Below are positions 8,565 to 46,906 of a stretch of DNA of 64,000 nucleotides, one piece after another; position 1 is the stretch's first letter; every line of letters starts with the position of its first letter. The stretch covers positions 3,494,501 through 3,558,500 of the forward strand of contig NC_080559.1 in NCBI RefSeq assembly GCF_030253575.1. The letters run 5' to 3'. This DNA comes from Rhododendron vialii. Taxonomy: Eukaryota > Streptophyta > Magnoliopsida > Ericales > Ericaceae. The translations under genes were made by a program, and so were the position numbers. The notes below the pieces were generated by a model that ran no database searches, had not been told where the DNA came from, and worked only from the letters and a program-made list of their open reading frames with translations.

Positions 8565-9105
8565 CGCACCAAAGGGATTCTGGATTATTGGATTATGTTC
8601 ACTCAGATGAAATCTCCTTTTTTTTTTTTTTGATCAAAAAAAGGAGGGAGATTTTTTTTTTGGTACCAAAAGAACGAGAAACCCTAAATACCTGAAAATC
8701 GAGAAACCCTCGTCGAAATTAAAATGGGTTTTTATCCGTATAATGGAAAGTTGCAAAGAAAAACCCTGTCCTTTCTTTGGTCAATGACATCTAGCCACCT
8801 GAACTTTTAACTCCATTAGCAATTAAGCCATCGACGTCAACTAACGCCCGGAATTCGTTGACGGGGATTTGGGTACTGACCAAAGCTTTTTGGAAGAGGA
8901 TCTGGAGAATCAAAGGGTGGCACCGATAGTGTACACTCATCTTGTTGATGGAAGTGTCACCAAACCAGCCACCAATCAAGTGGAGATTTAGATTTGGGGA
9001 CAATGCAATGACATGGTTCTCTCATGAATCATCAACTCTATGATGATAAATATCTTACTGTCATTACTGTTTTTATGCAGACCCTGTCTGTAGTGAATTT
9101 GACAA
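8565..9105. other. intergenic, degenerate repeat
   Basis: Contains T- and A-rich homopolymers (8619-8665) and a stretch at 8780-9000 in the style of a degenerate plant DNA-transposon arm (phrases such as TAACTCCATTAGCAATTAAG). No gene is supported. Confidence 0.35.
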
Positions 9106-9261
9106 GACTTCGAGGAACGTTGCTCGCAAGGTAATAATTCTCACATATTCTAAATTTCTAATTGAGAATAACTGATCCGTTCCCTTTTTTATTTATTTTT
9201 GTTCTTACCTGGGCTAGGTCCATTCAAACCATTGACCCGTTCCCTTAGTTTTAAACATTGA
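9106..9261. repeat. duplicated segment, copy A, left part
   Basis: Matches 16383-16421 plus 16705-16770: CTCGAGGAA-GTT-CTCGC-AGGTAATAAT, then GAGAATAACTGA and a C/T-rich CCGTTCCCT block. The match stops exactly where the Helitron complex begins at 9262 and resumes at 13796. Confidence 0.75.
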
Positions 9262-9950
9262 CTAGGGTCTGGGCACCGATGCGTATGCAAGTCAAATTTT
9301 TTGTCAAAATTTGTAAAAATTCGATCAAATATCAAACGGGAAGTTGTGCAAATTTTGACAAAATCCGACTTGCACACGCATTACGTGTGTCCCGGCCCCA
9401 AATATATTAGAATAGATAACTCAAGACCAGTGCAAGTCAAATTTCGACAAAATTTATAAAAATTCGATAAAACTATACACGGAATGGTTCCCAAACCAAA
9501 CCAATTATTGGTTCCCAATTTATAGAATTCAATTTCCAGTTTCATCAATTTGTAGGGGGTTTTCTACAAAACAACTAATTACATAAACACGCCTCATCGT
9601 AGAGTTTAATTCCTCTTGTTTTGTGGCCAGAAAGATAAATACAGTGTAAACGAAAGTTAAAAAGGAGAAGCCAAGTAAAAAGGGAGAAGTCGGGTAGATC
9701 CCTGTAGGGCAGATCACAGCCATCCAAATATGCTTTCAATGATCTAAATTTAAAATGAAAATTTTCCGTAAAATACTCTTAAACAATTCTTTCATCTACT
9801 GCTCTTGTACTGGCAGCCGACCATGCTCTCTGGTTCAAAAGGGCATCTGTTTGGAATGCCCGGACATCAACCTCGCCTCGCCCACCGCCAACTCTCTTGC
9901 CTTCGATAACTTCTGCGACAACCTCGTTCGTGGTTAAGCCCTACCCCTCG

Positions 9951-10436
9951 TTTATCCTCTGGGACCAACAGGTTGCGCACATCCTCGTCGATGGGGCTTG
10001 GAAAAAAGGAGCTAAGCGAAGTGGTCTTGGTTTTTGTGCTTCCCGGGCGGATGGGACCCCTATCTACCAATGCTCTATCTCGTGTTGTAGTTCGACTCCC
10101 CTGCAAACGGAACTCTTGGCTATTCTAGTCGCTATCACATGGGCCCTACAGTTTAATTTCAATGTCGCTTTCATATATTCTGATTGTTTAAATGCTATTA
10201 TGCAGCTGGCAGGACGGTCTGATTCTCACTATGCGGATAAATTTTTGTTGCACAACCTTGGTCGGGAACTCTCCAAACTAGATTTTTGAAGGTTATCCAA
10301 GGTTGATCGCAAGGACACGCACTCCGCCCACTGTCTAGCTAAGCGGGGTTTGCTGTCTCCCTCCATGTCACCAGTTGCAAGGGGGATTCCGTTTTGGACT
10401 GGAGCTACGGCTGATAGCCATCTTTTGTTCCCGTAG
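9951..10436 (+). pseudogene. LINE-type RNase H (RVT_3) domain remnant
   Basis: Reads HILVDGAWKKG, LQTELLAILVAI and IYSDCLNAIMQLAG: the Asp, Glu and Asp of an RNase H active site with normal spacing. The terminal VDRKDTHSAHCLAKRG (the VxRxxNxxAHxLAK motif of plant LINE RNase H domains) follows in the same frame but after one TGA at 10287-10289, probably a former TGG. No reverse transcriptase precedes it. It lies inside the Helitron complex on the opposite strand, so it may be an insertion or captured sequence. RNase H removes RNA from RNA:DNA hybrids during retrotransposition. Confidence 0.75.
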
Positions 10437-10977
10437 CTTCCTTTTGGTTGTATATAGTGTGCTTTTGTGCTTTCTCTTCCCTTGTATTCTGTAAACCTTA
10501 TTCCCGTCATCAATGCATTTCTATCATTTTGCAAACTGGAATATGCACTACACGTCATGTGTGTATCTATAGGGTTTCCGAAATAGCAAACGAAAACAAA
10601 AAGCAAAGAGAGAAGATGAGATACCTTGCAGTAGGAGACTGTGTGGCAGTATAGCTCTTACTACTTTCTTAGATTTGTCGCTATTTAAAAAATAAAAAAA
10701 AAGCCTGACTACTCCTACTTGTGAAGTATATAGAAAACAAAAGGTACTAAAAAAGCAAATATTAAAGGAGGAGCGAAAAAGGTAACCTTGTAGGAGACAG
10801 ATTCGTTCGATTAGGTTTTCAGAGAAAGAGAGAAGAAAGGTGTCTAGTTCCACTATGAAAGTAAATTCCGACTTAACTGTAAATTTGAGGGGAACGTGGG
10901 AATGGCAGTTGGGTGAGCCTGCTTTTACACAATTACTTGACAGTTAATCCTTCCGGCGGTTAAAAAACAATACGTAA

Positions 10978-11342
10978 GAGTATCTCCAACTCTTGATTTC
11001 AAATTGGGGATGACAATTTTTTTTGAAGGCTGATGTGACATTTTGGTTTCTCCAATTTGACATCAAAGTCTTCTTTTCCAACCTTTATGCCAAATTTTAT
11101 TTATTTGACATCAAGCTATCCATCTCCAACTCTTAATGTCAAAATCCAAACAGTCATCTTTGAAATTTGGCAGGCAAAAGATAGGTAGTCAAAGTTGGCA
11201 TGCTTCCGCCCCCCTTCATCCTTGTCAAATGCCATGTAGGATTTGGCCTAATAGAAGGCATCAGGATTGGAAAGTGAATTGATGCCAAAAGTTACCGTTG
11301 CACTGTCCACGTCATGTTTGACATCTCCCATTGGAGATGCTC
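10978..11342. mobile_element. PIF/Harbinger-like MITE
   Basis: Terminal inverted repeats GAGTATCTCCAACTC and its near complement TTGGAGATGCTC, flanked by TAA on both sides (10975-10977 and 11343-11345). A 3 bp TAA duplication is the mark of PIF/Harbinger insertion. 365 bp, non-coding, nested in the Helitron complex. Confidence 0.8.
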
Positions 11343-11563
11343 TAAAATCCTTTCTTTTGGAGGGCATTTTTGGAAAATAAAAATACATGATAGGACTTCA
11401 AAAAAGGATGGCACCAAAGTGGTGCTTTCCCTTTGTATATTAGAATAGATATAGTAGAATAGAAGTTCAATGTGTATCCTCCTGTTTGAAGTATGCAAGT
11501 TATCAGTAAGATTAAAAGTTTATTTGACATTAAAAATTAAGAAAAATAACTGTAATATTTTAT

Positions 11564-11932
11564 TTACGAACCTGGGTGGTGTCGTTGGTTGTAGTTTGAT
11601 CGTCGTCGTGCCAATTGTTGTTGACGTTGCTCATTGCTTAAAACAGCTCGTCTTTCTCTAGCTCTGTTACACCATCTCAATCTGTGTTGATCATGAGTAG
11701 GTGGAGTGGGTTGTTTTGTATGATTAGTTGACCTTCTCTGTGGTACTTGATCAGCAGTAAAATTTTGCGTAGATGTCTGTCTTTCTTGCTCAACTTGTTG
11801 AGGATTGAGACGTTGTTGACGGCGTCGTTGGCCGTCACAATTTTGTTCTCTTACATGTTGTAGCCATTCTGTAGATATTTGCTTTGATCTATCTTGTGTT
11901 TCCTCCTCCATTGTGGTGTCCCTTATAAGCAT
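11564..11932 (-). pseudogene. Helitron Rep/helicase N-terminal remnant
   Basis: A 122-codon minus-strand frame rich in Arg and Gln, with RERRAVLSNEQRQQQLARRR and QRRRQQRLNPQQVEQERQ. Basic Q/R-rich stretches of this form precede the helitron-helicase-like domain in plant Helitron proteins. The Rep HUH motif and the PIF1 helicase are absent. Orientation agrees with the surrounding Helitron. The call rests on composition and context, not on a catalytic motif. Confidence 0.5.
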
Positions 11933-12478
11933 TGAAAGTGTTACAACAACAATCTATTCTAATAAGCACGAAGCCACAAACTGACTTTAATTTTTCTATG
12001 CATTCAAATTTGCCCATAAAAGCACTGTAGAGATTGGGGCACGCGCGATGCGTGTGCAAGTCGAATTTGGACAGAATTTGTGAAAAATTGATGAAACATT
12101 AAAACGGGAAGCTATTGAAATGCATATTTGCCACTTTTTCTAAATGTTGAGTTACAACAGTCTTTTTTTTTTTTACCCAAATTGCAGAGGCTACACTTAA
12201 AAAATGGAAACCCAAATTTGATGTATATTAATGAAAAGTAACAACAAAAGAGTAAAAGACACATTCAAAATTGAACCATGGCTGACGAACCTGGAGTTTA
12301 TTTGGAGATGTTTTTATTTAAAAAAAAATCAGTTTTTGTTTTTAGAATAGATTATGAGAGCTATTATTTTCTCTTTCTAACAGTAACCCACTTAAATTGA
12401 AAATGCATGTTCCTAAATGCTGAGTAAAAATTCAGTCCCTCTATTTTTAAGCAAATTTAGAGGCTACACTCAAGGAAA

Positions 12479-12702
12479 AAATAGGGAATTTAAAATAGAA
12501 GATGCAAACCCAAATTTTGATTCTAGCCACATTGTGTTAGGGAGGAGTGGTATTCAAAAACTGATGAAAAGTTTAAAAAAAGAAGAGTGGTGCAGAACAG
12601 TACTTGTACTTTCTGTAATAAAAATAGGGAATTTAAACTAGAAAATGCAAACCCAAATTCTAATTTTAGCCACATTTTATTAGGGAGGAGTGGTATGCAA
12701 AA
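12479..12702. repeat. imperfect 142 bp-period direct repeat
   Basis: AATAGGGAATTTAAA through AGGGAGGAGTGGTAT occurs at about 12479-12560 and again at about 12621-12702, roughly 85-90 percent alike. A weaker third echo (AAACCCAAATTTGATGTATA) lies near 12206. Confidence 0.8.
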
Positions 12703-12750
12703 CAAAAGTGCTATGAAAACACCGGTGGTTTACACCATATGTGCACCATC

Positions 12751-13457
12751 TATGTGGCAACAAACATGATGCAGTAATGGGCCCCATCTTTTCTATTTTT
12801 CAATTCAAAATTTCACCATTTTGCCCGAAATTTTAACCCAACTTCACTAACTCAGTTCCAAACCAAACACCCTCTCGAGTTGACTCACTTTTACTCCCAT
12901 CATCGATCCCATTTTCACCTCCCACCGTCGATGCCACCGACCACCATCACCATTGACGCTGGCGACCACTCTCTGTGACTCCCATCTCTCTCAGTCTCTC
13001 TACAAAATTGAATCCGATTGTTGCACTTGTCCAACAAAATTGAATGAAACGTGATCCGAAATGTGCGAAATCACTTATTTTTTCCAACTAATCTTCCCCA
13101 TTTTCTGTTTCTTCCTTAAATTTCTGTATTTTAATACAAAACAATTTGCTATAATTTTCCAAAAACATCATCTGTTATGAAATTAGGGTTACTAAAGTTG
13201 GGGCTTTGAAGACCTGGACCTGGACAAAATTACCATTTCAGAAGGAAATTTGGACGCAAATTTCTCATGGTGATGAAGGAAAAGTTTCCCGTGCTTCATT
13301 GAGAAAAAATGTCAGGTGAAGGCAACGATGCAAGGATGTCAGGTTGAGGCAAGTTTGGGGCAAAATCCGTAGTGTGAGTTTCGACAACTTTTGCTGAAAT
13401 TTTGAATTGAAAATAGAAGAGGTGGGGCCATTGCTGCATCATGTCAGTTGCCACATA
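12751..13457. mobile_element. TIR element, about 0.7 kb, inside the Helitron
   Basis: Left arm 12751-12813 (TATGTGGCAAC, ATGATGCAGTAATGGG, CAATTCAAAATTTC) is the near reverse complement of right arm 13396-13457. The interior has a pyrimidine-rich, gene-like stretch (12850-13010) and no transposase. No convincing target duplication was found. Arms over 60 bp fit a Mutator-like element, possibly carrying captured gene sequence. Confidence 0.6.
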
Positions 13458-13795
13458 ACATTTGACGTACTACTACTTTTTTTTTTTGAGAGAGAGAGAG
13501 AGTATACCTTAATTGGAATAGAGTAGGTTTTGCATTGGAACAGCGGAAAGAGTGCTGAAATGAATGAAAGGGAAACTGCTGAACAACGTCGGTGTAGATG
13601 ATGTTGGACGGAGCAGTTGATGAAAAAAGGGATGGTAACTGTTTTTGTGAGGTTTCTTTGTGTGTTAAAATGTCTAATATATTTCCAAAATTAACTATTT
13701 TGTTTTGTGTGTTTTTTTTAAGGGTATTTTAGGAAAGAAAAATACGTGATAGGGAGATACCAAACTGGTGCTTTCCCTTTATATATTAGAATAGA

Positions 13796-14195
13796 TAACT
13801 CGGTATAACATAAGGCTATTGGATGATGGAAGAGATAGAGAATCCCTAAATATCGATGACGGGCATTAGGAAAACACCCATTTGATTTGTAATTTGATTG
13901 GCATTCATAATTTCCTTTGACAATGAAGATTTGTAGACATCCCCTTTTTTTTATCAGCAAAAATGGTTTCCTTATCATTAATAATAATGATACAAAAAGA
14001 AACTCTAATACATCAGTGAGTGTAAAGACAAATTCAATCAAATGAGAAGCGTCATACAATGATGCATGAGAAGGAACCGAAAAAAAAAAATCTACATTGC
14101 TCGAGCAAAGTTATTGGCTTCAGAGAGGGAAGTTTCAAAACGGCTATAAAGTGAACGTTGCTGCTTGATTTTAACTTGTGTTTGGCTCACGAAAT
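13796..14195. repeat. duplicated segment, copy A, right part
   Basis: Matches 16771-17062: ACATAAGGCTAT, AGAGAATCCCTAAATATCGA, CATTTGxTTTGTAATTTGAT and GTTTCAAAACGGCT are shared. Copy A carries about 115 bp of different sequence near 13942-14060. The minus strand of both copies reads SRFETSLSEANN and, in copy B, QEVYKSSLSKEIMNANQI, so the unit may contain an old exon fragment of a protein I do not recognise. Confidence 0.8.
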
Positions 14196-16382
14196 GTTTG
14201 GATGTTTTTATATTCTTATTTTTATAATTCTTGATTAATAAAAATAAGAATAAAATCTTTCAAAATTTTGTCTTACATCAGTCTCATTTTCTTCAAAACA
14301 AAACTTTTGTTCTCGAGTTCTTGTTGAAAATTTGTCATCATCCATTCCATGCCAAAAGAACAGATACTTAGAATATAACAAATAATTTGAAGCAGAATAT
14401 GCAAAACGAAGAAACACATATACTTGCTGAACTTCGCCTTGGCAAACTTGAGACCTCCTCCACCAACGAAACCCTAGAATGCCAACGAGAAACCCTCGAA
14501 TTTATGGGACGGGAGTAAATACCTCCATTTGGGTATGTCAAGCAGCAATGCCACCAACTCGTCATCAAGGATCACCTTGCCAGCATCAAACATAGCATTA
14601 GTCGAAGGGGTCCCAACAACGCCAACCAACTTGTGCACCTCTTTGTTCTCTTTTCCCAGGAGACTTGTTGCTCTTGGCTCACTCTTTTATATATACTACC
14701 TTTTCTTTTTCTTCTCTCATGTACTCACTAGTCTCTTCCAAAGAGATAAGAAACAATTAGCTTCCAAGAGAAGCTAATATATTGCCACCAACAAACATGT
14801 GCAAGACATGTGCCAAATAAGTGTAAAAACTTCAAAAAAAAAAAAAAAAAACACTAGCACACAATCTTGAGCCAAACACTATTGGGCCTATTTTCATGGA
14901 AAAAAATCCAACAGTGTTTGGCTAGACCAATATTTTTAAATCGGGATACGTATAACCTGAGACCGAAACAAAAATATTATATTTTACACATATAAAAGAA
15001 ACACTAAACAATGTCCATTTAGCTTGAACCCAAACGATAAAGCCAAAAAGAATATAAGCATTTCTTACTAATTAATTCCTTGCACTCTGTTCATTAACAG
15101 AATCACATTGACAGAAATGCTGATATCACCGTTTCATGTGTTCCGGTGGGGAATAGGTTAGTTGAGTCTTCTGAACACCATATTGGTCTTTTTGTTGCTC
15201 AGCGTTTCCTATCACTACTTCAAATATAGTCAGGACATCATTTATCATCTTAAAAAGCCTCATCTTGTAAATGAAAATTCAAACAAAGTTCAGAGGCAAC
15301 TCAAAAGTAGAGTATCACTTCAAATAGAGTTGGAGTTTTTATTGTGTAGTTGGACAATATTTTTGGAGGAGGGAGAATACTAAAGACACGAGAGGAGAAG
15401 GAGAGTATTTGTTTATACTTAAACTCAAACTTTTTTGGCTTGGTACAAAATGGTTTGAACTCATCCCTATTTATACTACTCTATGGAAGACTCTAGTATA
15501 AAGATACTTTTTATACAAGATAAATTTTGAGGTAATTTTAGAATTACACATGAGACTAATTTTCACAAAAAAACTCTAGATATTTCATAAGGATATTCTA
15601 GAGCTTATACTAGATATTTTAGAGTTCATAAAAACTAAATATTTATATTTTTTTCGATAAGGGAAATGATAATGCCAAAACTATTTTTGTGAGTGCAAAA
15701 ACTCTAGTGCATAAAAGGCTTGTACCATGTGCAATGTACAAGACTTTTATGCATTGGAATTTTGGCACCAACAATTGGCATTATCACAACCCCCTCGATA
15801 ATATTTATCATATTTGGATTTTGTCAATTAGAGCTTTAATTGTCATCAAAATACTAAATTTAGTTTATGTTTCAACGACGTTTATCATAATTAAAATATA
15901 ATTAAGAAGTAGATAAATCTAATAACACCAACAAACTAGGCTTACATTTAAAAAAAATTAAGATACAAAATTTCAAGTCTCTCAAGTGGGGCCTATTACA
16001 TTAAGGTTTTATGTTCCCTTTGTTAGGAAAAAAAAAGTAAGACAAAATACAATCGAAGTATGATTCTTTCTTTTATACAAGACCTACTACATTGAGGTTG
16101 AATTTTCTATCAAAGGGTTTGAAAGATGCTATAATTAGATCAAATGGCTTAAATTAATGCAATTGGAGTTCCGTTTCTTGAGATAAGGTCCAACTTTTTT
16201 CGAATAAGTAATCATAGGATACGTACAAAATTAGGAATACGCATATAAATCGTAAGAGACGCGGTCATATTATAAAATTTTTATACAAAAAAGAATACAT
16301 GATGGGATACGTATCGTTCTCTGAAGGAGACGATACAAATCGTAAGATATGTATCGTGTATCATAGGTTTTTAACAACTACG
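14196..16382. other. AT-rich intergenic DNA, no gene seen
   Basis: Frames at 14368-14777 and 15162-15383 have no recognisable domain. 16190-16380 contains a family-like repeat with recurring ACGATACAAATC and GGATACGTA phrases; a similar style recurs at 63580-63760. An A-homopolymer lies at 14835-14852. Confidence 0.4.
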
Positions 16383-17062
16383 GGGTAGACCTCGAGGAAT
16401 GTTTCTCGCGAGGTAATAATCCACTACAAGAAAAAGTGTATTCGGTGATGAAAAAAATGGTGATGAAATTATTTTTACTATAGGTGAAACAAGATTTTTG
16501 TCACCAAAACTTATTATATGTGACGAAAAACAAGATTTTCATCGCTAAAAGTGACTTTCGAAGACAACCTATAGGTGATGAAAGAAGATTGTCTCCGAAA
16601 GTCACTTTTTCGTCACCTATAACATGTTTTTGTCAGCCTATAGTAACTTTTTTTGAAGAAAAATTTATTTTCCATTAGCAAATATACTTTTTTTTGTAGT
16701 GATCCTCGTATCTTTTATTAGTTGAGAATAACTGACTGGCCCATTCCCTCGGTTTAAAAAATTGATAACTTGGTATATAACATAAGGCTATGGGATCATA
16801 AAGGAGATAGAGAATCCCTAAATATCGATGACAGGGCATTAGGAAAACACCCATTTGGTTTGTAATTTGATTGGCATTCATAATTTCCTTTGACAATGAA
16901 GATTTGTAGACTTCTTGTGCTCGGACAGCGCCTGATGACTGGTGCATGAGAAGGAACAAAAAAATCTGCATTCGTTGAGCAAGGTTATTGGCTTCAGAGA
17001 GGGAAGTTTCAAAACGGCTGTAAAGTGAACGTTGCTGCTGTGTTCAACTCACAAAATGTTAG
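16383..17062. repeat. duplicated segment, copy B (Helitron-empty)
   Basis: Second copy of the unit split by the Helitron at 9262-13795. The Helitron target reads straight through here as AAATTGATAACTTGG near 16770. This copy was instead hit by a CACTA MITE at 16422-16701. Confidence 0.8.
16422..16701. mobile_element. CACTA-type MITE
   Basis: Begins CACTACAAGAAAAAG and ends CTTTTTTTTGTAGTG, with 3 bp duplications ATC at 16419-16421 and 16702-16704. CACTA/GTAGTG ends with a 3 bp duplication define the CACTA superfamily. The 280 bp interior is itself an imperfect hairpin (GTCACCTATAG / CTATAGGTGATGA). Confidence 0.9.
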
Positions 17063-28727: not shown

Positions 28728-29589
28728 TCCAGAAGTAAAGTTTTCTCTATTGGATTCGACACCTATAGTAACTGTTCTAGGTGATGTTTGTTTTCCAAAG
28801 TAAATGTTGGGTGATGTTAATGTACTTTAGTTGGCTGCTAGTAGTAGCCTTGATCTCGTTTCGAGTTTGGCAAAACAAGGATGTTCTAAAACCAGGCTGC
28901 TAGTATTGCTTTAGATTTACGATGGTTCAAGTGGGGAATAGAAGCCATCCAAGAAAACCTGACCTGACCTGATGTAGTGATGTGTTTTTTTTCAACCAAG
29001 CTATGGCCACCCACGGCTTGCTCACCGATTGTTCACCGACGGCCACGCAGGGCCCACTTTGGGTCCCGCACGGAAAATCCGATCTGTTCAATATTTTTTT
29101 TTTTTAAAATGAGGGGGCCTACGAAAAATCAAGTCAATCCGACATGTGTAGATGTTCGATCAAATCTTTTCATTCAAATTTCAGGATCGAGCACCTACAC
29201 ATATCGGATAGAGCTGATTCTTCGAGGGGCTGCTCGGTTTCTTTCTTAAAATCATTCAACGGCTTGGATTTCCCTCTCGGAACCTCGAGTGAGTCCTGCA
29301 TGGCCGAGCCGTCTGTGGCTGTAGCAGGTCTGCTTTCCTATAGGAAACCTAAACATATTGCATTAGCATTAGTAAACAATATTCCTACAGTACAATCATA
29401 GCTTTCTCCAATTCATTTTCACACTTAAAAATGAGTATATAACAAAATCGAAACTTTCCTAGAAGTATCCAAATGCACCTACCCTAGAATATTTTAATTG
29501 AAGAACAGCGACCTTAGACCCATCGCAATAAAATGAATCAAACCTCACAATTAACCAATTTTCAACGCCTGGGATTCCCCCAGCATAAC
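28728..29589. other. 3' flank of Y14 and a palindromic DNA element
   Basis: 28990-29330 is an inverted-repeat element: TCCGACATGTGTAGATGTTCGATC pairs with GATCGAGCACCTACACATATCGGA around 29160-29210. The hairpin core matches the element at 47145-47560 (ACACACATCGGATGCCGTT). A TATATAA box at 29434-29440 lies 150 bp upstream of the UGT pseudogene start. Confidence 0.5.
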
Positions 29590-31773
29590 ATGGAAACCAT
29601 CGACCAGCTCAACCCGGTAACCGGCCGCCACGTGGTAGCCATGCCTTTCCCCGGCCGCGGCCATGTCAACCCCATGCTTAACCTCTGCGCCCTCCTCATC
29701 CCCTCTCCCAGAGTCTCCACCATCACCTTAATCCTCACTGAAGAGTGGCTCGGCTTGATCAGCCACCAGCTCCCGCCAGCCGGCTTGCCGCCCAAACTCC
29801 GGCTCCGCTCCATCCCCAACGTCTTGCCCTCCGAGCTGACTTGTGGAGCTGACTTGAGCGGCTTCTACAAAGCCGTCGATACGAAAATGGAAGCCCCACT
29901 TGAAGAGGTGCTCATGAGCCTTGACCGTCAGCGGCTTGAGCCGCCGGTTTCGTGTGTCGTGGCCGATGTTTTCCTGCCGTGGGTGGTGGGGGTGGGGAGG
30001 CGGCGGAATATTCCGGTGGTGGCGTTTTGGACCCAGGCGCCGTCGGTGTTCTCCGTGTTTCACAATTTTGACCTCATTGTTGCTCGCGGACATTCCCCGG
30101 AAGACGCCTTACCGGGTACGTGCAAACTCGTCATAATGAAGAGCAAAAGCTCTTGAAAGAAAAATAAGAACCACAGTACTACTCCCCATAATTTCTTGAT
30201 TTTTACTTTGTGATTCTTGATTCGTTGCAAGGTAATTCAAAAAAATTATTTATACTAGAACTTTATTTTTTTGTAAAAAAATCGCATTACATTTTGGCAC
30301 AAAGGAATTAGGACCTGTTTAACTTAACTTTTAGCACTTTTTGTTCTTATTCAAATTTTTTTTTAATGTTTGTTAGTTTTGCTCCAAGCTTTTGTGACTT
30401 ATTGATTCGAGACGTATTGGAAAATTAATAACCACTTTCTAGCGGAAAAAAAGAGTCAAATAAGTTGGTTTTTTTTTTTTTTTTTGTGCTAAAAAATGGT
30501 TATTTTTCAAAATATTTGGGTAAAAGTAAATTTTTTTTTACTTTCCGATTTCTCTCGTCGAGACAAATCAATAAGTCATAAAAGTTTGACGCAAAGCTAA
30601 TAAACGCGGAAAAAAGTCAAATAAGGACAAGACCAACTTATTTGTCTAAACGTTATGTGAAATGGCCCCTTAATAACAATAAGTCTACCCCACCGCAGCG
30701 CTCAATTTCACTGTCCATCTCGGTAATCAATGATCCAGATTTTAAAAACTCCTTCCTGAAAGAGTTTTTTTAAATCTGGACCGTCCAAGAGTGACGGTGC
30801 GATTGAGAGCGGTGGAGGAGTGGTGAATGAGAGCAATGGGAGTATGACTTTTAATAAAGAGTTAAAAAGCTGATTTGTGATCTATATGAAGCAGGAAAAG
30901 AGGAAGAAATTATTGACTACGTGCCCGGGGTCTCACCAATGCGCTTGACGGACCTGCCAATCACTAAATTCGACAGCACCTCAAAAAATCCTCAAACCAA
31001 CTCTTGAAGCCTTCTCTCTCCTAACCACAGCCCAGTCCATTATCTTCACTTCATTCTATGAACTCCAACCCAGTGCAATAAACGCCCTAAGGTCCAATCT
31101 CCCAATACCCATCTACACCATTGGGCCTTCAATCCCTTTCTTATCACTAAAAACCTCTATCAATGAGGAGGGCTACATGAATTGGCTCAACTCTCAATGT
31201 GAGGCTTCTGTTTTGTATGTGTCACTGGGAAGCTTCTTGTCAACATCAGAGGACCAAATGAAGGAGCTTTCTCTGGGCCTACGAGCCAGTGGAACCCGAT
31301 ACTTGTGGATCGTTCGAGCTGATCAGGAGTCGAGCTTTAGAGTAGGGTGTTGTGAGGAGAACGGTTTCATGGTGCCTTGGTGCGACCAGTTGAGAGTTCT
31401 TTGTCATCGTTCAATCGGTGGATTCTTGACTCATTGCGGGTGGAATTCGACCATGGAAAGTATTTTCGCTGGTGTTCCGATGCTCACTTTCGCGTTGTGT
31501 TTGGATCAGATGCATAACAGCAAGATAATAGTTGAGGACTTGGGAGTTGGAATGACGTTGAAGGGAGTGGTTGGTTTGGAAAATGTTATTGGGAGAGAGG
31601 AAATTGCAGAGACAGTGAAGCGGTTTATGGACTTAGATGGGAAGGAAAGCAAGGAAATGAGAAGAAGAGCTAAAGAACTTCAAGAAATTTGTCACAGGGC
31701 TATTGACACCAGTGGATCAACTGAAGCTAATGTCACTGATTTTGTTGAAAGCTTATGTTGTGTAACAAGTTAA
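29590..31773 (+). pseudogene. UGT87A-like UDP-glycosyltransferase, frameshifted
   Basis: Exon 1 (29590-30115) encodes METIDQLNPVTGRHVVAMPF and the catalytic His in PGRGH. The intron is 30116-30894 (GTACGT...GCAG). Exon 2 (from 30895) starts GKEEEIIDYVPGVSPMRLTD, then loses 11 bp relative to the intact neighbour near 30985-31000, giving a TGA at 31005-31007. Beyond it the original frame resumes to the normal C-terminus, with a nearly complete PSPG donor box (WCDQLRVLCHRS...THCGWNSTMES...DQ). In the PSPG, LALPLRSDQ of the neighbour is LTFALCLDQ here. The gene is a tandem duplicate of the one at 33141-36524, same strand, same intron position and phase. An in-frame upstream ATG at 29533 also exists. 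A product starting inside exon 2 would lack the acceptor domain, so this is called dead. Confidence 0.88.
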
Positions 31774-33140
31774 TCCAAAACCCTAAACTTTTTTGGAAGA
31801 GTGAGTTCGTAGGGCCTCCTCGAGTTTCACATAGATGGTCCGAGCCGTTCATTTCATAGAAAATAATTTTTCAAATTGCCATGTAATAATTCAGCTCAAT
31901 AAATATCACCCAAGTGCTAAGAATTGTAAACTTCAAATTATATGAATCAAACATTAAAAGTATCGATTAAGTTCATATAGATACTAGATTGAACTAATTT
32001 TTACGGGGCATCCCGAAAGCAGAATAGCATATGTTTACCTTTGAATCTGGAATTGTTTATGTTGGGTGGGGTCCACCCCATTTGTTTGTAAGCCTGATGT
32101 CCCATGAGGACTTCTAGAAGCTGTAAGTTTGAGCTGCAGTTGAGTGCTTTGAATAGGGCATAGGTTGGAGTGCCTTGTCACAAAGACGTTAGGAAGCTCC
32201 CTATGTTCCATATGTTTTGAGATTTGATATACATGAAAGTAAAATGGATTGTCTAGATTCACACTAATACGGATTTCGGTCATTCATTTTACTTTCACGG
32301 GCACTTTCATGTATCTGTTTTATATATCATACTCCCTCCGTCCCTTTTTAAGTGTCCTACTTCGTAACTCTAACTTATTAAAAAGACATCATCATTACAC
32401 CTTTCACATCAACTTTTTCCTTCACTTTTCCTACTTACCCATCATCATTACACTTTTACTCACTAACTTTTCAAAATAAAATCTACTTTTAGGGACAAAA
32501 TAGACAATACACCAACTTTTACCCCCCTAACTTTACAAAATGGACACTTATTAAAGGACAGCCCAAAATGGAATACTGGACACAAAAAAAGGGACGGAGG
32601 GAGTATTGTTTTTGTATATTTTTGGACTCCTTTAAATGAGAGGAGGGAAAAATAGAGAGTTGAGAGGTGTAGAAGGGAGGAAGAAAGGCACCTCCTCCGG
32701 GAGGGAGTTGGGTGAGCCGGGGCTCCATTGAGGGTGAGAGCCAGAGAGGTGAGTTGATTAGAGTGAGCCGATTGAGTGTCCCCTCCTCCTCCTTTATATT
32801 TGTATCTACCCTAGATCTTTCTCTCACTCGTTTCCAAACAATTTAATTACTTGCTTTCTTTTAGTTTCTCAAAACAATCAAACCAATCAACTCTCCTTTT
32901 TGTTTTGAATTAATTTAAAAATTGATCGAATTTATAATAACTTAGCTATATTGTCCCCGTAGATCACGAGTAATTATTTAGCGCTCCGAGAATACCACTC
33001 GTCGTTACCTACGTGATAAATGAACCACGTCGAGTATGTGCTGTAGATCACCACTGGCCAACCATACTGAATATATACTGGACCAAAATAAGTCAACTTT
33101 CACCTCCGATTTTCATCGCCTGAGATTCCTCCTACACAAC
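31774..33140. other. spacer between the UGT87A copies
   Basis: Contains a Stowaway MITE (32332-32603), otherwise AT-rich. No gene. The 100 bp before 33141 include an in-frame upstream ATG (33036) and a TATATA stretch near 33071. Confidence 0.5.
32332..32603. mobile_element. Stowaway-type MITE
   Basis: CTCCCTCCGTCCCTTTTTAA at the left and GGGACGGAGGGAG at the right, flanked by TA (32330-32331 and 32604-32605). 272 bp; sub-terminal arms AAGTGTCCTACTT and AATACTGGACAC pair in part. It lies about 540 bp upstream of the intact UGT87A-like start. Confidence 0.9.
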
Positions 33141-36100
33141 ATGGAAACCATCGGCCAGCCCAACCCAATCACCGGCCGCCACGTTGTGGCCATGCCTTTC
33201 CCCGGCCGCGGCCACATCAACCCCATGATCAATCTCTGCACCCTCCTCATCCCCTCTCCCAGAATCTCAACCATCACCTTAATCCTCACCGAAGAGTGGC
33301 TCGGCTTGGTCAGCCACCACCTCCCACCGGCCGCCGCCTCACCCAAGCTTCGCCTCCGCTCCATTCCCAACGTCCTGCCCTCCGAGCGGACTCGCGGAGC
33401 CGACTTCTCGGGATTCTCGTTCTACAGAGCCGTTGACATCGAAATGGAAGCCCCGTTTGAAGAGTTGCTGCTGACTGATGATCTACGGCCGGTTTCGTGC
33501 ATCGTATACGATGTTTTTTTGCGGTGGGTGCCTGGGGTGGGAAGCCGGCGGAATATCCCGGTGGTGGGGTTCTGGACCCAGGCGCCCTCGATGTTTTCTG
33601 TGTATTACCAGTTTGACCTTATTGCTGATCGTGGACATGCCCCGATTAAAGACAACTCACGAGGTGCGTAACAAAACTGAATTTTCTTTTGTCACTTTGC
33701 AAAGAGCAATGCTATAAACAGACATTCAGAACACAGCTTCGGACACAATCGCATCTGTGTCCGGAACTGTTAAGAGTGTCCTATGACAATGCAACGGTCC
33801 GGATGTTATAGCTAAAGACATTTTAAAGTGTGTTCTAGACTTTTTGCTTTTACAAAATGATAATTAAAGTGCCCTATGACAATATAAAATGTAGGATAAT
33901 GGGTCATCGTCGTAATCTAAATTAACTGTGTAGTTTGTGAAGCTAAGTTTATTGAGTAAAGCCATTTAAGAAAGAAAATTAAGTTAATGAGATGTGATTA
34001 CCCACCTTATTGTACACTAAATTTATTTTTTGAAAAAAGATGGTCACTAGTTACGGTTTTAAATATGGATTGAAAACCAATTTATCTGATCATATGCCAT
34101 TATATCAAATTATCAATGCCTATTATGAGTAACTGTACTGTTCAATGAATTTTATAATCTGAAAAGATCGAATCACGATGACAGATCTCCATGAAGTCCG
34201 CCTATACATGTGCATTACACTTTGGTAGTGAAAAATCGCACAAATGAAAATCATTGCGGATCTATTGTTATAATATTTGGAACAAAACAAAAATCATGAT
34301 TAAAAAAATAATCGATATGATTTACCCACATGCAATATTCATGGAGCGACATAGATCTATCTTAATCTTTGAAGCACCACCACCACCACCATTTCCGAGA
34401 TCAATGAAAAATTGATGATGGCGGTGTCGTTCCGGATTCTTCTCCAAGATCAATGAATACGATGACTCATGACGCTATTAATTTAGAACGTCGCCGTCGA
34501 CTTTTTTTTTTAAATAATCCGGATGCGCCGCCGTCTACTTGAAACCCAGATCTGGAGTGGTTTGAACTGGTGGGTCGCTGCGGGTGCGGAGTGGGCTGAA
34601 CGGGGTGGGCCGTGGTCGGACGGGAGTGGGTCGCCGAAACACAAATCCATGGCTTCGATTTGAAACTTGCGTGCACGCGTGGTGGTGGTGATGGGGTCAA
34701 GAGAAGTTGTTTTGTTCGGTGCATTATTGCTTTGATTCATGTTGGAATGTATGGGGATTGAGGAGAAATTTTTCAGCGCCAAGCGGGCACCGGCCACGTG
34801 GTGTCGAGCACGCATCTTGATTGTCCAAACGTGTTTTGGATGGTCCAAATGTGTTTGGGTTTGAAGGGGTGTTTTGGTAATTTTACACTCAAGATTTATC
34901 CAAACAGATCTGGACCGTCCAAAACACGTTTGGACGGTCGAGATGGTGCTCGGCACCACGTGGCCGGTACCCACCCGGCACTGAAAAACTTCCCGGGATT
35001 GAGAGAAAAAAGAGCAGAGAGGAAGAGGGAGTAATGGGGGACCCCTTACCAGATTACGTGTACGTGTTCGAGAGAGGTGAGACTTCTCCGGCTATGTATT
35101 CTCCGAGATTTGAGAGAGAATGTGTTTGGATAGACATTAAATTTGTAGGGAGAGAGAGAGTTAATTAATGAAGAAATTAAATAAAGGCAAAATTGGTCAT
35201 TCAACTAATTTAAGGATGAAAACATAAGTATTTAAATTCATTAGGATGGACGCTTAAAGTAAGTTTTTCATATAGGATTCCTATTTAATTTCTACTTTTA
35301 AGTATTTCATTCACAAAATAAGCAAAAAAGGTGATGGGAAAATATGACCATGACCATTGAATATTAAGGTCACCTTAATACTACATTACTACTCCCCCGT
35401 ACCGATTTGCTCTCTTACTAAAAATCGTGCTATAGTCGGATAAAGAAAATAAAGTACTTCCATACACAATTTTCTTAGATTTTTGCACAAATAAATTATT
35501 TCATGGTTCTTTATTTGATGCAAGGAAATCCAAAAAATTATGACAAAAAAAATGTTTGATTGTTTATCTGGAAATTGCATGTTGACAAAAAATGTTTGAT
35601 TGTTTAACTCAAGAGTGACACTGATCTGAAAATTTATCTGAAGCAGGAAAAGAGCAGGAGATCATAGACTACCTTCCCGGGGTCCCACCCATGCGCTTGA
35701 CGGACCTACCAAGCACCATACTCCACCCCACTCAAACCCTCAACGTAATTCTTGAAGCCTTCTCTCTCCTAACCAAAGCCCAATCCATCATCTTCACTTC
35801 ATACTATGAGCTCCAGCCCAATGTAATAAGTGCCCTAAGGCCCAATCTCCCAATGCCCATCTACACCATTGGGCCTTCCATCCCTTTCTTATCACTAAAA
35901 ACCTCTAATATCAATGAGGCGGGCTACACGAAGTGGCTCGACTCCCAGCCTGAAGCTTCTGTCTTGTATGTATCCTTGGGAAGCTTCTTGTCACCATCAA
36001 CAGACCAGATGAAGGAGCTTTCCTCGGGCTTACGAGCCAGCGGGGCTCGATACCTGTGGATCGTTCGAGCAAATCAGGAGTCGAGCTTTAGAGCAGCATG

Positions 36101-36524
36101 TTGCGAGGAGAAGGGTTTTACGGCGCCTTGGTGCGACCAGTTGAGGGTTCTCTGCCATCGTTCGGTTGGCGGGTTCTTGACTCACTGCGGGTGGAATTCG
36201 ACCATGGAGAGCGTTTTTGCGGGCGTTCCGATGCTTGCCTTGCCGTTGCGTTCGGATCAGGTTCACAACAGCAAGATAATAGCGGAGGACTTGGGAGTTG
36301 GGGTGAGATTGAAGAGGGTGGTTGGTTTGGAAAATGTTATTGGGAGAGAGGAAATTGCAGAGACTGTGAAGAGGTTTATGGATTTGAACGAAGAAGAGAG
36401 TAAGGAAATGAGAAGAAGAGCTAAAGAACTCCAAGAAACTTGTCACAGGGCTGTTGAAGCTGGTGGATCAACTGATGCTAATGTCAATGATTTTCTTGAA
36501 AGCCTAGGCAATATTACAAGTTAG
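33141..36524 (+). CDS. UGT87A: UDP-glycosyltransferase, UGT87A-like, intact
   Basis: Two exons (33141-33663 and 35647-36524) join in phase 1 across a GTGCGT...GCAG intron to give 466 aa. The N-terminal acceptor domain starts RHVVAMPFPGRGHINPM with catalytic His25; TEEWLGLVS and NIPVVGFWT follow. The PSPG donor box is residues 336-379 (WCDQLRVLCHRSVGG, HCGWNS, final DQ). VLYVSLGSFLS and the C-terminal IGREEIAETVKRFM-RRRAKEL match UGT87A of Arabidopsis almost block for block, and length fits (about 455 aa). The family transfers glucose from UDP-glucose to small acceptors in the cytosol; Arabidopsis UGT87A2 is linked to flowering time and stress. The acceptor cannot be told from sequence. The PSPG has LRSDQ where UGT87A usually has FWDQ; a Ser there is also seen in other active UGTs. 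Intron 1 carries a family A MITE. The start chosen is the METI shared with the neighbour; an in-frame ATG at 33036 would add 35 residues. Confidence 0.92.
34763..34994. mobile_element. Mutator-like MITE, family A copy 2, in UGT87A intron
   Basis: Left end GAGAAATTTTTCAGCGCCA; right end CGGCACTGAAAAACTTCCC; perfect 9 bp duplication GGGATTGAG at 34754-34762 and 34995-35003. The interior has inverted copies of CCGTCCAAAACACGTTTGGA. Its 232 bp account for part of the intron's extra length over the sister gene. Confidence 0.9.
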
Positions 36525-45427: not shown

Positions 45428-45481
45428 CATTGCCATGTTTTTCAAAAACTTCACAAGGTTTGGAGTTAACATATCTTTCCA

Positions 45482-46906
45482 ATGTCCCACCAACAAAACC
45501 ATGGCCAAGGAGGCCTTAAGCAAGCCCAAGTGGCTGTGGTCATGGTACCCTTACCGGCTCAAGGCCATCTCAACCAGCTCCTCCACCTCTCCCGCCTCGT
45601 CTCCGCCTACAACATACCGGTCCACTATGTTGCCTCCGCCACCCACAACTGCCAAGCCAAGCTTCGCGTCCACGGTTGGAACCTCCAATCCGCCTCCAAT
45701 ATCCACTTCCACGAATTCCCAACCCCTCATTTTCACTCTCCTCCTCCAAACCCTAACGCCTCCGTCAAGTTCCCCTCACATCTCCAACCCTCGTTCGATG
45801 CCTCATCCCACCTCCGCGATCCCTTTGCCAAACTCCTACACTCTCTCCTCCCGAAATCACAAAGAATCATCGTCATTCACGACTCACTAATGTCTTCTGT
45901 CGTCCAAGATCTAGTTCTGATACCACACGTCGAGTCATACTCTTTCCACAGCGTCTCCGCGTTTGCTATGTTCTTTTACTTTTGGGAAGCCTTAGGAAGA
46001 CCTTTTCCAGTCGAACTCGAACTGCTGAAAGACCTTCCTTCTCTCGAAGGTTGCTTCACGACGGAGTTCAGAAAATTCGTCACCAAACAACACAAGTGCA
46101 CAAATCTCGCCTCGGGTCGCCTTTACAACACATGCAAAGCCATAGAAGGCCCATTCCTTGATCTACTAGCGAAAGAAGAGATCAGTGGAAACAAGAAACA
46201 ATGGGCTCTCGGGCCGGTGAACCCGGTGGAAATACAAGACAACAACTTGAGCTCAAATCATGCCCACAAATGTCTGGAATGGCTTGATAAACAAGCTCCA
46301 AACTCTGTGATCTACGTCTCTTTCGGAACCACAACTTCCTTGAGCGATGCACAAATCAAAGAGCTAGCACTTGGGCTGGAAAAGAGTGAGCAGAAGTTCA
46401 TCTGGGTGTTGAGAGACGCCGATACCGGTAACATATTTTCAGGAGAGGGAAAGAGAGGTGATGATGATCAGCTGCCAAAAGGGTATGAAGAGAGAGTTGA
46501 AGGGAGGGGAATGGTGGTGAGAGGGTGGGCGCCACAACTGGAAATCTTGGGGCACCCGTCCACGGGCGGGTTCATGAGTCACTGCGGGTGGAACTCTTGC
46601 ATGGAAAGCATAACAATGGGGGTGCCCATAGCAGCTTGGCCTATGCACTCGGACCAGCCAAGGAACACTGTGCTGATAACAAAATTGCTGAAGATTGGAT
46701 TAGTCGTGAAGGACTGGGCGAGGAGGGAGGATTTGGTGGAGTCGACGACTGTCGAAAGAGCTATTAGAATGTTGATGGGGTCGAGGGAAGGAGAGGAGAT
46801 GAGGAGGAGGGCGGCGGAGCTGGGTGGTGCCGTTGGAGAGTCCGCGGCGGAAGGTGGTGGTTCTCGATCGGAGTTGGACTCTTTCATTTCTCATATCACA
46901 AGATAG
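45482..46906 (+). CDS. zeatin O-glucosyltransferase-like UGT (UGT93 type)
   Basis: A single exon of 474 aa, the usual length for the family. The N-terminal domain has VVMVPLPAQGHLNQLLHLSR with catalytic His29 and the partner Asp in VIHDSLMSS. The PSPG donor box is complete at residues 349-392: WAPQLEILGHPSTGG, then HCGWNSCMESITMGVPIAAW, and the final HSDQ. The Gln at its end favours UDP-glucose, but members also use UDP-xylose. PSPG plus NTVLITKLLKIGLVVKDW match zeatin O-glucosyl/O-xylosyltransferases almost word for word. These cytosolic enzymes attach a sugar to the side-chain hydroxyl of zeatin, giving storage cytokinins; relatives with other acceptors exist, so zeatin is likely but not proved. 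No intron is needed. The 5' half uses C-rich codons, the 3' half G-rich ones. The promoter carries a MITE (45123-45357) and a TATA box at 45420. Confidence 0.92.
   Translation: MSHQQNHGQGGLKQAQVAVVMVPLPAQGHLNQLLHLSRLVSAYNIPVHYVASATHNCQAKLRVHGWNLQSASNIHFHEFPTPHFHSPPPNPNASVKFPSHLQPSFDASSHLRDPFAKLLHSLLPKSQRIIVIHDSLMSSVVQDLVLIPHVESYSFHSVSAFAMFFYFWEALGRPFPVELELLKDLPSLEGCFTTEFRKFVTKQHKCTNLASGRLYNTCKAIEGPFLDLLAKEEISGNKKQWALGPVNPVEIQDNNLSSNHAHKCLEWLDKQAPNSVIYVSFGTTTSLSDAQIKELALGLEKSEQKFIWVLRDADTGNIFSGEGKRGDDDQLPKGYEERVEGRGMVVRGWAPQLEILGHPSTGGFMSHCGWNSCMESITMGVPIAAWPMHSDQPRNTVLITKLLKIGLVVKDWARREDLVESTTVERAIRMLMGSREGEEMRRRAAELGGAVGESAAEGGGSRSELDSFISHITR

Follow-up and report, generated by a model that had tools for sequence, protein, structure and literature searches.

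Did the 4534-base-pair (bp) block that interrupts a duplicated host segment in Rhododendron vialii arrive as a single Helitron, or is it made of several elements, and to which of them does its 3' end belong? The question is raised by a locus on contig C3 (NC_080559.1), where the stretch C3:3494501-3558500, 64,000 nucleotides long and called the window here, was analysed together with a scan of 532.6 Mb of the genome in 13 contigs; unless a contig is named, positions are counted within the window. A sequence-only reading had described a Helitron complex with minus-strand TC...CTAG limits at 13795 and 9262, boundaries fixed by a related empty site nearby. Of this description the edges stand to the base, but the 3' boundary is that of a nested 155-bp mini-Helitron and not that of the element which begins at 13795. 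We are fairly confident that the block is a composite nested chimera, in which one Helitron (B) lies in the Rep-helicase gene of another (A) and the mini-Helitron lies in B after the motif GAGTTA. The block and the host copies around it are as follows.

9262 to 13795, minus strand: the complete chimeric block of nested Helitrons (4534 bp, TC...CTAG), at a host A/T site (a slash marks the point of insertion throughout)
9106 to 9261, plus strand: host segment, left part, from alignments of the flank with the sister copy and the paralog
13796 to 14195, plus strand: host segment, right part, from alignments and a genome search
16383 to 17062, plus strand: sister copy, an empty site without the Helitron and with its own 280-bp CACTA-like miniature inverted-repeat transposable element (MITE)

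On the minus strand GAGTTA stands before the block, the 5' edge reads ...CCGAGTTA/TCTATTCTAATATATAAAGG with its T at 13795, and the 3' edge reads GACCCTAG/TCAATG with the final G at 9262, and these limits coincide to the base with the interruption of the host segment. With the block taken out, the host flanks read CATTGATAACTCGG. Alignment confirmed that the sister copy is continuous across the insertion point (AAATTGATAACTTGG), and a third paralog beyond those known to the sequence-only reading, at C3:3300400-3300900 (L029) and about 208 kb upstream of the block, is also empty (TTTTAAACATTGATAACTTTCG), making two empty sites on the block's own contig. Both have A/T at the insertion point and the outer edges are without a target duplication, as had been proposed for an insertion between A and T. 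On the left, a match of 87.5% over 32 bp to the third paralog stops exactly at 9261. On the right, the flank is 92% identical to the sister over 155 bp in BLAST, and this match begins at 13790, 6 bp within the block, because AATAGA resembles AATTGA. BLAST of the left flank against the sister gave no match up to the junction and only 34 bp at 9105-9138; similarity beside the junction is visible in the global and multiple alignments. What the empty sites fix is the outer edges, not the arrival of the whole 4.5-kb complex as one unit.

The host copies have acquired other insertions as well. The MITE of the sister occupies 16422-16701 (CACTACAAGAAA...TTTTGTAGTG) and is flanked by ATC on both sides. 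The host copy at the block has extra inserts relative to the sister, and a repeat of about 110 bp at approximately 13945-14062 in its right part has no counterpart in the sister. In the genome search with the right flank 41 matches were listed, and the majority, 50-130 bp long, were to copies of this repeat elsewhere.

The ends of the block belong to a repeated family. A genome search for the 20-base 5' terminus gave 144 exact copies (69 forward and 75 reverse), and its reversed control gave none. Of the 100 listed places, 39 were fetched, 20 as 10-kb and 19 as 2-kb stretches, a sample in which elements exceeding the fetched stretch would escape detection. The base before the 5' end was A at 36 of the 41 termini present in these 39 loci (T at three, G at one and C at one). 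A 3' module could be delimited in 21 of the loci; it ended with CTAG/T in 19 and with CTAA and then T in one, and the module of L044 had no CTAG. L015 and L016 have common flanks and are not independent in this count. A hairpin stem precedes CTAG in each arm of the family copies, decayed yet recognisable in the window. Open reading frames (ORFs) at C10:28615700-28622700 (L052, L055) contain Helitron_like_N (E 4.2e-44), PIF1 (E 1.1e-34) and Pif1_2B (E 2.4e-21), the domains being read with Pfam in L055 from fetched C10 sequence that excludes the 5' terminus of this relative. Judged from these sequence features, the family is of the canonical Helitron1 type, with TC and CTRR ends, insertion at A/T, a hairpin 10-15 bp ahead of the 3' end, and Rep and a PIF1-type helicase. 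No terminal inverted repeat of at least 16 bp was found to link the two termini of the block, nor were the first 12 bases found inverted near the 3' end with at most one mismatch, a search that would miss a shorter or more diverged repeat. The sole inverted copy of these 12 bases within the block (TCTATTCTAATA on the plus strand, 11953-11964) lies in the 5' untranslated region (UTR) of the Rep-helicase gene, and its presence there is common to the window, L009, L018, L038 and L052.

Within the block, from the 5' end of A onwards, the following parts were distinguished.

13525 to 13795, minus strand: 5' end region of Helitron A, like the 5' ends elsewhere in the genome (C10:24153625 at 73%)
12751 to 13457, strand not applicable: MITE-like insert in A with terminal inverted repeats of about 66 bp (88%)
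12028 to 12703, minus strand: piece of a further Helitron inserted in A, its 3' end decayed (a hairpin and then CTCTA, without CTAG)
11464 to 12027, minus strand: 5' UTR, first coding exon, intron and start of exon 2 of the Rep-helicase gene of A
11450 to 11463, minus strand: 14 bp remaining of an earlier Helitron 5' end, TCTATTCTACTATA, adjoining the 5' end of B
9417 to 11449, minus strand: Helitron B, cut at internal ...CTTGAGTTA (9417), its own 3' module gone
10975 to 11345, strand not applicable: second MITE-like repeat, within B, with about 20 genome matches listed at 85-93%
about 9785 to 10535, plus strand: RNase-H-like (RVT_3) fragment inserted in B (Pfam E 2.3e-5)
9262 to 9416, minus strand: 155-bp mini-Helitron, consisting of a 5' end of about 15 bp and a near-palindromic 3' module

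Aligned with their relatives, A and B both prove to be without their distal parts, and the relatives continue beyond each point of loss. For A this point is 11463, beyond which the element extends in L052 and L053, and the window contains only the first exon and the exon 2 start of its Rep-helicase gene. The ORF of the first exon (11567-11953) is 81% identical over 117 amino acids to the N-terminal exon of L052, and the DNA of 11464-12027, within which exon and splice limits were judged by eye, is 91-93% identical to copies on C10 and C13; Pfam found no domain in the first exon. Helitron B continues past 9417 in L049 and L074 on C4 and in L073 on C9 (TTCAATTA...), and in the C4 relative it extends to a full module ending CTAG/T. 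CTTGAG was therefore ruled out as B's own 3' end, since B reads on in these relatives. GAGTTA was likewise rejected as a target-site duplication: the second copy of this motif lies inside the block, where B adjoins the mini-Helitron, and is part of B, because the C4 and C9 relatives each contain CTTGAGTTATTCAAT and extend beyond it. The CTAG of the mini-Helitron is the outer 3' edge of the block, and among the 40 candidates scored out of 934 there was no second full-length match to the block.

The smaller inserts vary among relatives. The MITE-like insert at 12751-13457 has a partial genome match at C8:5863805, and the Helitron piece at 12028-12703 is present in L050 and missing from L009 and L018. 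Both relatives of B are empty where the window has the RVT_3 fragment, which has seven further genome matches of 83-99%, several of them partial. In L037, in L038 and at 11450-11463 of the window the 5' terminus is doubled, 12 or 14 bp being present of the older copy, which looks as if Helitrons insert at A/T steps within one another's 5' ends.

The simplest reading of this arrangement, to which we give about an even chance, is one rolling-circle event from the 5' end of A to the terminator of the mini-Helitron. Transposition would have set out from the 5' end of A and run to the first functional terminator on its way, the module of the nested mini-Helitron, and the remainder of A and B would have been left behind by this early stop. 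Several observations weigh against such a single event. The site in the host, ACCGAGTTA/TCAATG, and that of the mini-Helitron in B, CCTTGAGTTA/TTCAAT, are similar, and in their longer forms (host, CCGAGTTA/TCAATG; mini-Helitron in B, CTTGAGTTA/TTCAATT) the two have GAGTTA/T(T)CAAT in common. At the 10938 A/T sites of the window, GAGTTA stands on the left 11 times, T(T)CAAT on the right 101 times and both together never, so that two random targets are unlikely, and given the shared GAGTTA/T(T)CAAT a homology-assisted step is possible. The 15-bp 5' end of the mini-Helitron may also be too short for independent movement. Its 5' junction has one exact genome match, the window itself, and a genome-wide search for a donor of the junction between B and the mini-Helitron returned an exact match only in the window and six at three mismatches, with two in controls. 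Donor copies of this single-copy junction were rejected for this assembly, as was a multi-copy mini-Helitron family, the sole match at two mismatches (on C5) having no module.

These observations can also be accommodated by a stepwise origin in place, which we take seriously while considering it somewhat improbable. In that case A, with B inside it, entered the host A/T, the distal parts of B and A were lost, and the mini-Helitron was inserted afterwards; the loss would have been a template switch or deletion between GAGTTATTCAAT of B and GAGTTATCAAT of the empty site, for example on the other allele or a paralog. The GAGTTA/T(T)CAAT common to both sites, the presence of AGTTATCAAT in both paralogs and the uniqueness of the junction between B and the mini-Helitron in the genome are consistent with this order of events. 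However, the mini-Helitron must then have struck the A/T of the junction exactly, a coincidence whose probability, roughly estimated, is about as low as that of the match to be explained, and more steps are required than in one bypass event. That the block is an ordinary indel or an assembly artefact with Helitron-like ends by chance is very improbable, because the single-copy state of both junctions of the mini-Helitron, which would suit an artefact, has to be set against 144 exact 5' termini with none in the control, A/T edges exact to the base and a coding relative.

The module in which the block ends has an unusual structure in the family. It is about 148 bp long and consists of an inverted arm of 46 bp, a centre of about 48 bp and a second arm of 46 bp; it is near-palindromic, and in many family copies it typically has CTAG at both outer tips, while some copies, L017 and L019 among them, show just one arm, the 3' one. 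In 16 of 21 modules an A stands before the inner CTAG, which results in a complete-looking Helitron 3' end on each strand. Three modules folded as single-stranded DNA were much more stable than their shuffles, with z-scores of -17.8 (L037), -14.4 (L020) and -7.5 (window). At L009:801-2620 an opposite-strand Helitron 5' end lies about 290 bp past the 3' module, and two Helitrons thus seem to converge on one two-headed module.

Relative to the body of the element, the centre was in the orientation labelled R in 12 and in that labelled F in 10 of 22 modules. The mini-Helitron of the window is R, from a 20-bp centre match (E 0.021); orientation was similarly taken from short centre matches in L013 (26 bp) and in L015 and L016 (23 bp), and by eye in L051. 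Behind one body, the tail of the Rep-helicase relative, 19 copies from among the 40 candidates scored out of 327 included 11 R, seven F and one without a module. The last is L072, scored as F by the script (20 versus 17) but counted as moduleless because from about 20 bp onwards other sequence takes the place of the module. A second body was also found in both states, with F in L030 and L051 and R in L040, and L030 and L040 are 96.5% identical over the last 115 bp of the body. The pair formed by L045 and L020/L028 was rejected as evidence of flipping, their bodies overlapping by only 26 bp. Comparison of the copies shows, then, that one and the same body can be followed by a centre in either orientation.

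Parvovirus genomes have terminal near-palindromes with the centre in both orientations (flip/flop). The pattern observed here looks like flip/flop inversion in that a terminal near-palindrome exists in two orientations; here, however, it belongs to an integrated rolling-circle transposon and the mechanism of inversion is conjectural. During rolling-circle transposition the displaced strand would fold the hairpin of the module, and the centre would be inverted if this strand were cut and rejoined at one CTAG or the other, or if the arms recombined. The module would then be usable as a terminator from either side, which would ease the formation of new Helitron chimeras. We propose tentatively, and as a doubtful possibility, a two-headed terminator that has a working CTAG on each strand, is re-ligated either way in transposition and stops Helitrons from both sides.

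Frequent flipping is not what the body tree suggests, as orientation is clustered on it, with three changes versus a shuffled mean of 5.8. The two orientations might instead go back to a single ancient inversion followed by exchange of 3' ends between elements, through the inner arm that they share, rather than to repeated inversion in transposition, an explanation that we regard as quite plausible, if short of an even chance. The well-supported branches of the body tree force only one change and a single F clade was not rejected (approximately unbiased test, p 0.117), which together with the clustering favours exchange. Against it, the best body tree needs three changes, none of 200 bootstrap trees needs just one, and the second body carries both states. 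In keeping with exchange, the modules are no more alike within bodies (similarity 0.863-0.875) than between them (0.876-0.888) among the 27 of 40 modules compared; those omitted, most of them internally deleted or diverged, were L058, L063, L071, L013, L015, L016, L024, L030, L034, L040, L044, L051 and the mini-Helitron of the window. In the module tree (22 rows) one of 19 inner branches was well supported, and seven changes were needed versus shuffled means of 7.5-7.6. Exchange would also be open to the 46-bp arms by recombination, as they hardly differ in sequence. Module sequence does not follow the bodies, so that both inversion in place and an exchange of ends via the arms fit these copies.

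The family resembles canonical plant Helitrons (Helitron1; TC...CTRR) in its ends, the hairpin near CTAG, the A/T target, the Rep-helicase coding relative and the content of gene fragments. The canonical 3' end has a single hairpin of 16-20 bp (PMC13286980), whereas here a 148-bp near-palindrome carries a 3' hairpin and CTAG on both strands. In Helraiser and Helibat, bypass of the terminator leads to new 3' ends and mobilises downstream DNA (PMC4778049). In contrast to such read-through into host DNA, the present block apparently stopped early, at the 3' end of a nested Helitron. Helitron2 and FoHeli have multiple 5' termini, self-insertions near the termini and inverted repeats at the ends (PMC5148889), all of which have likenesses here. 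Unlike in Helitron2 and Helentron, with their asymmetric terminal inverted repeat, an inverted repeat between the 5' and 3' termini was not seen in a search for at least 16 bp, and the repeat lies within the 3' end. Read-through chimeras, self-insertions and multiple termini are already known for Helitrons (PMC5148889, PMC4778049). No report of a Helitron 3' palindrome that switches orientation was found, in a search that left most of the subscription literature outside.

Elsewhere in the window, long open frames at 29518-36521 and 45470-46903 are UDP-glycosyltransferase-like by eye and form a possible, putative tandem cluster.

The locus bears on how Helitrons end transposition and remake their 3' ends, which we judge not to be settled. 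A chimera that seems to start at A and to stop at a nested element, and whose contig also carries two empty sites, is a natural record of terminator choice. In addition, the terminal palindrome, present in either orientation behind one body, offers a trace through which hairpin processing could be tested in a eukaryotic rolling-circle transposon.

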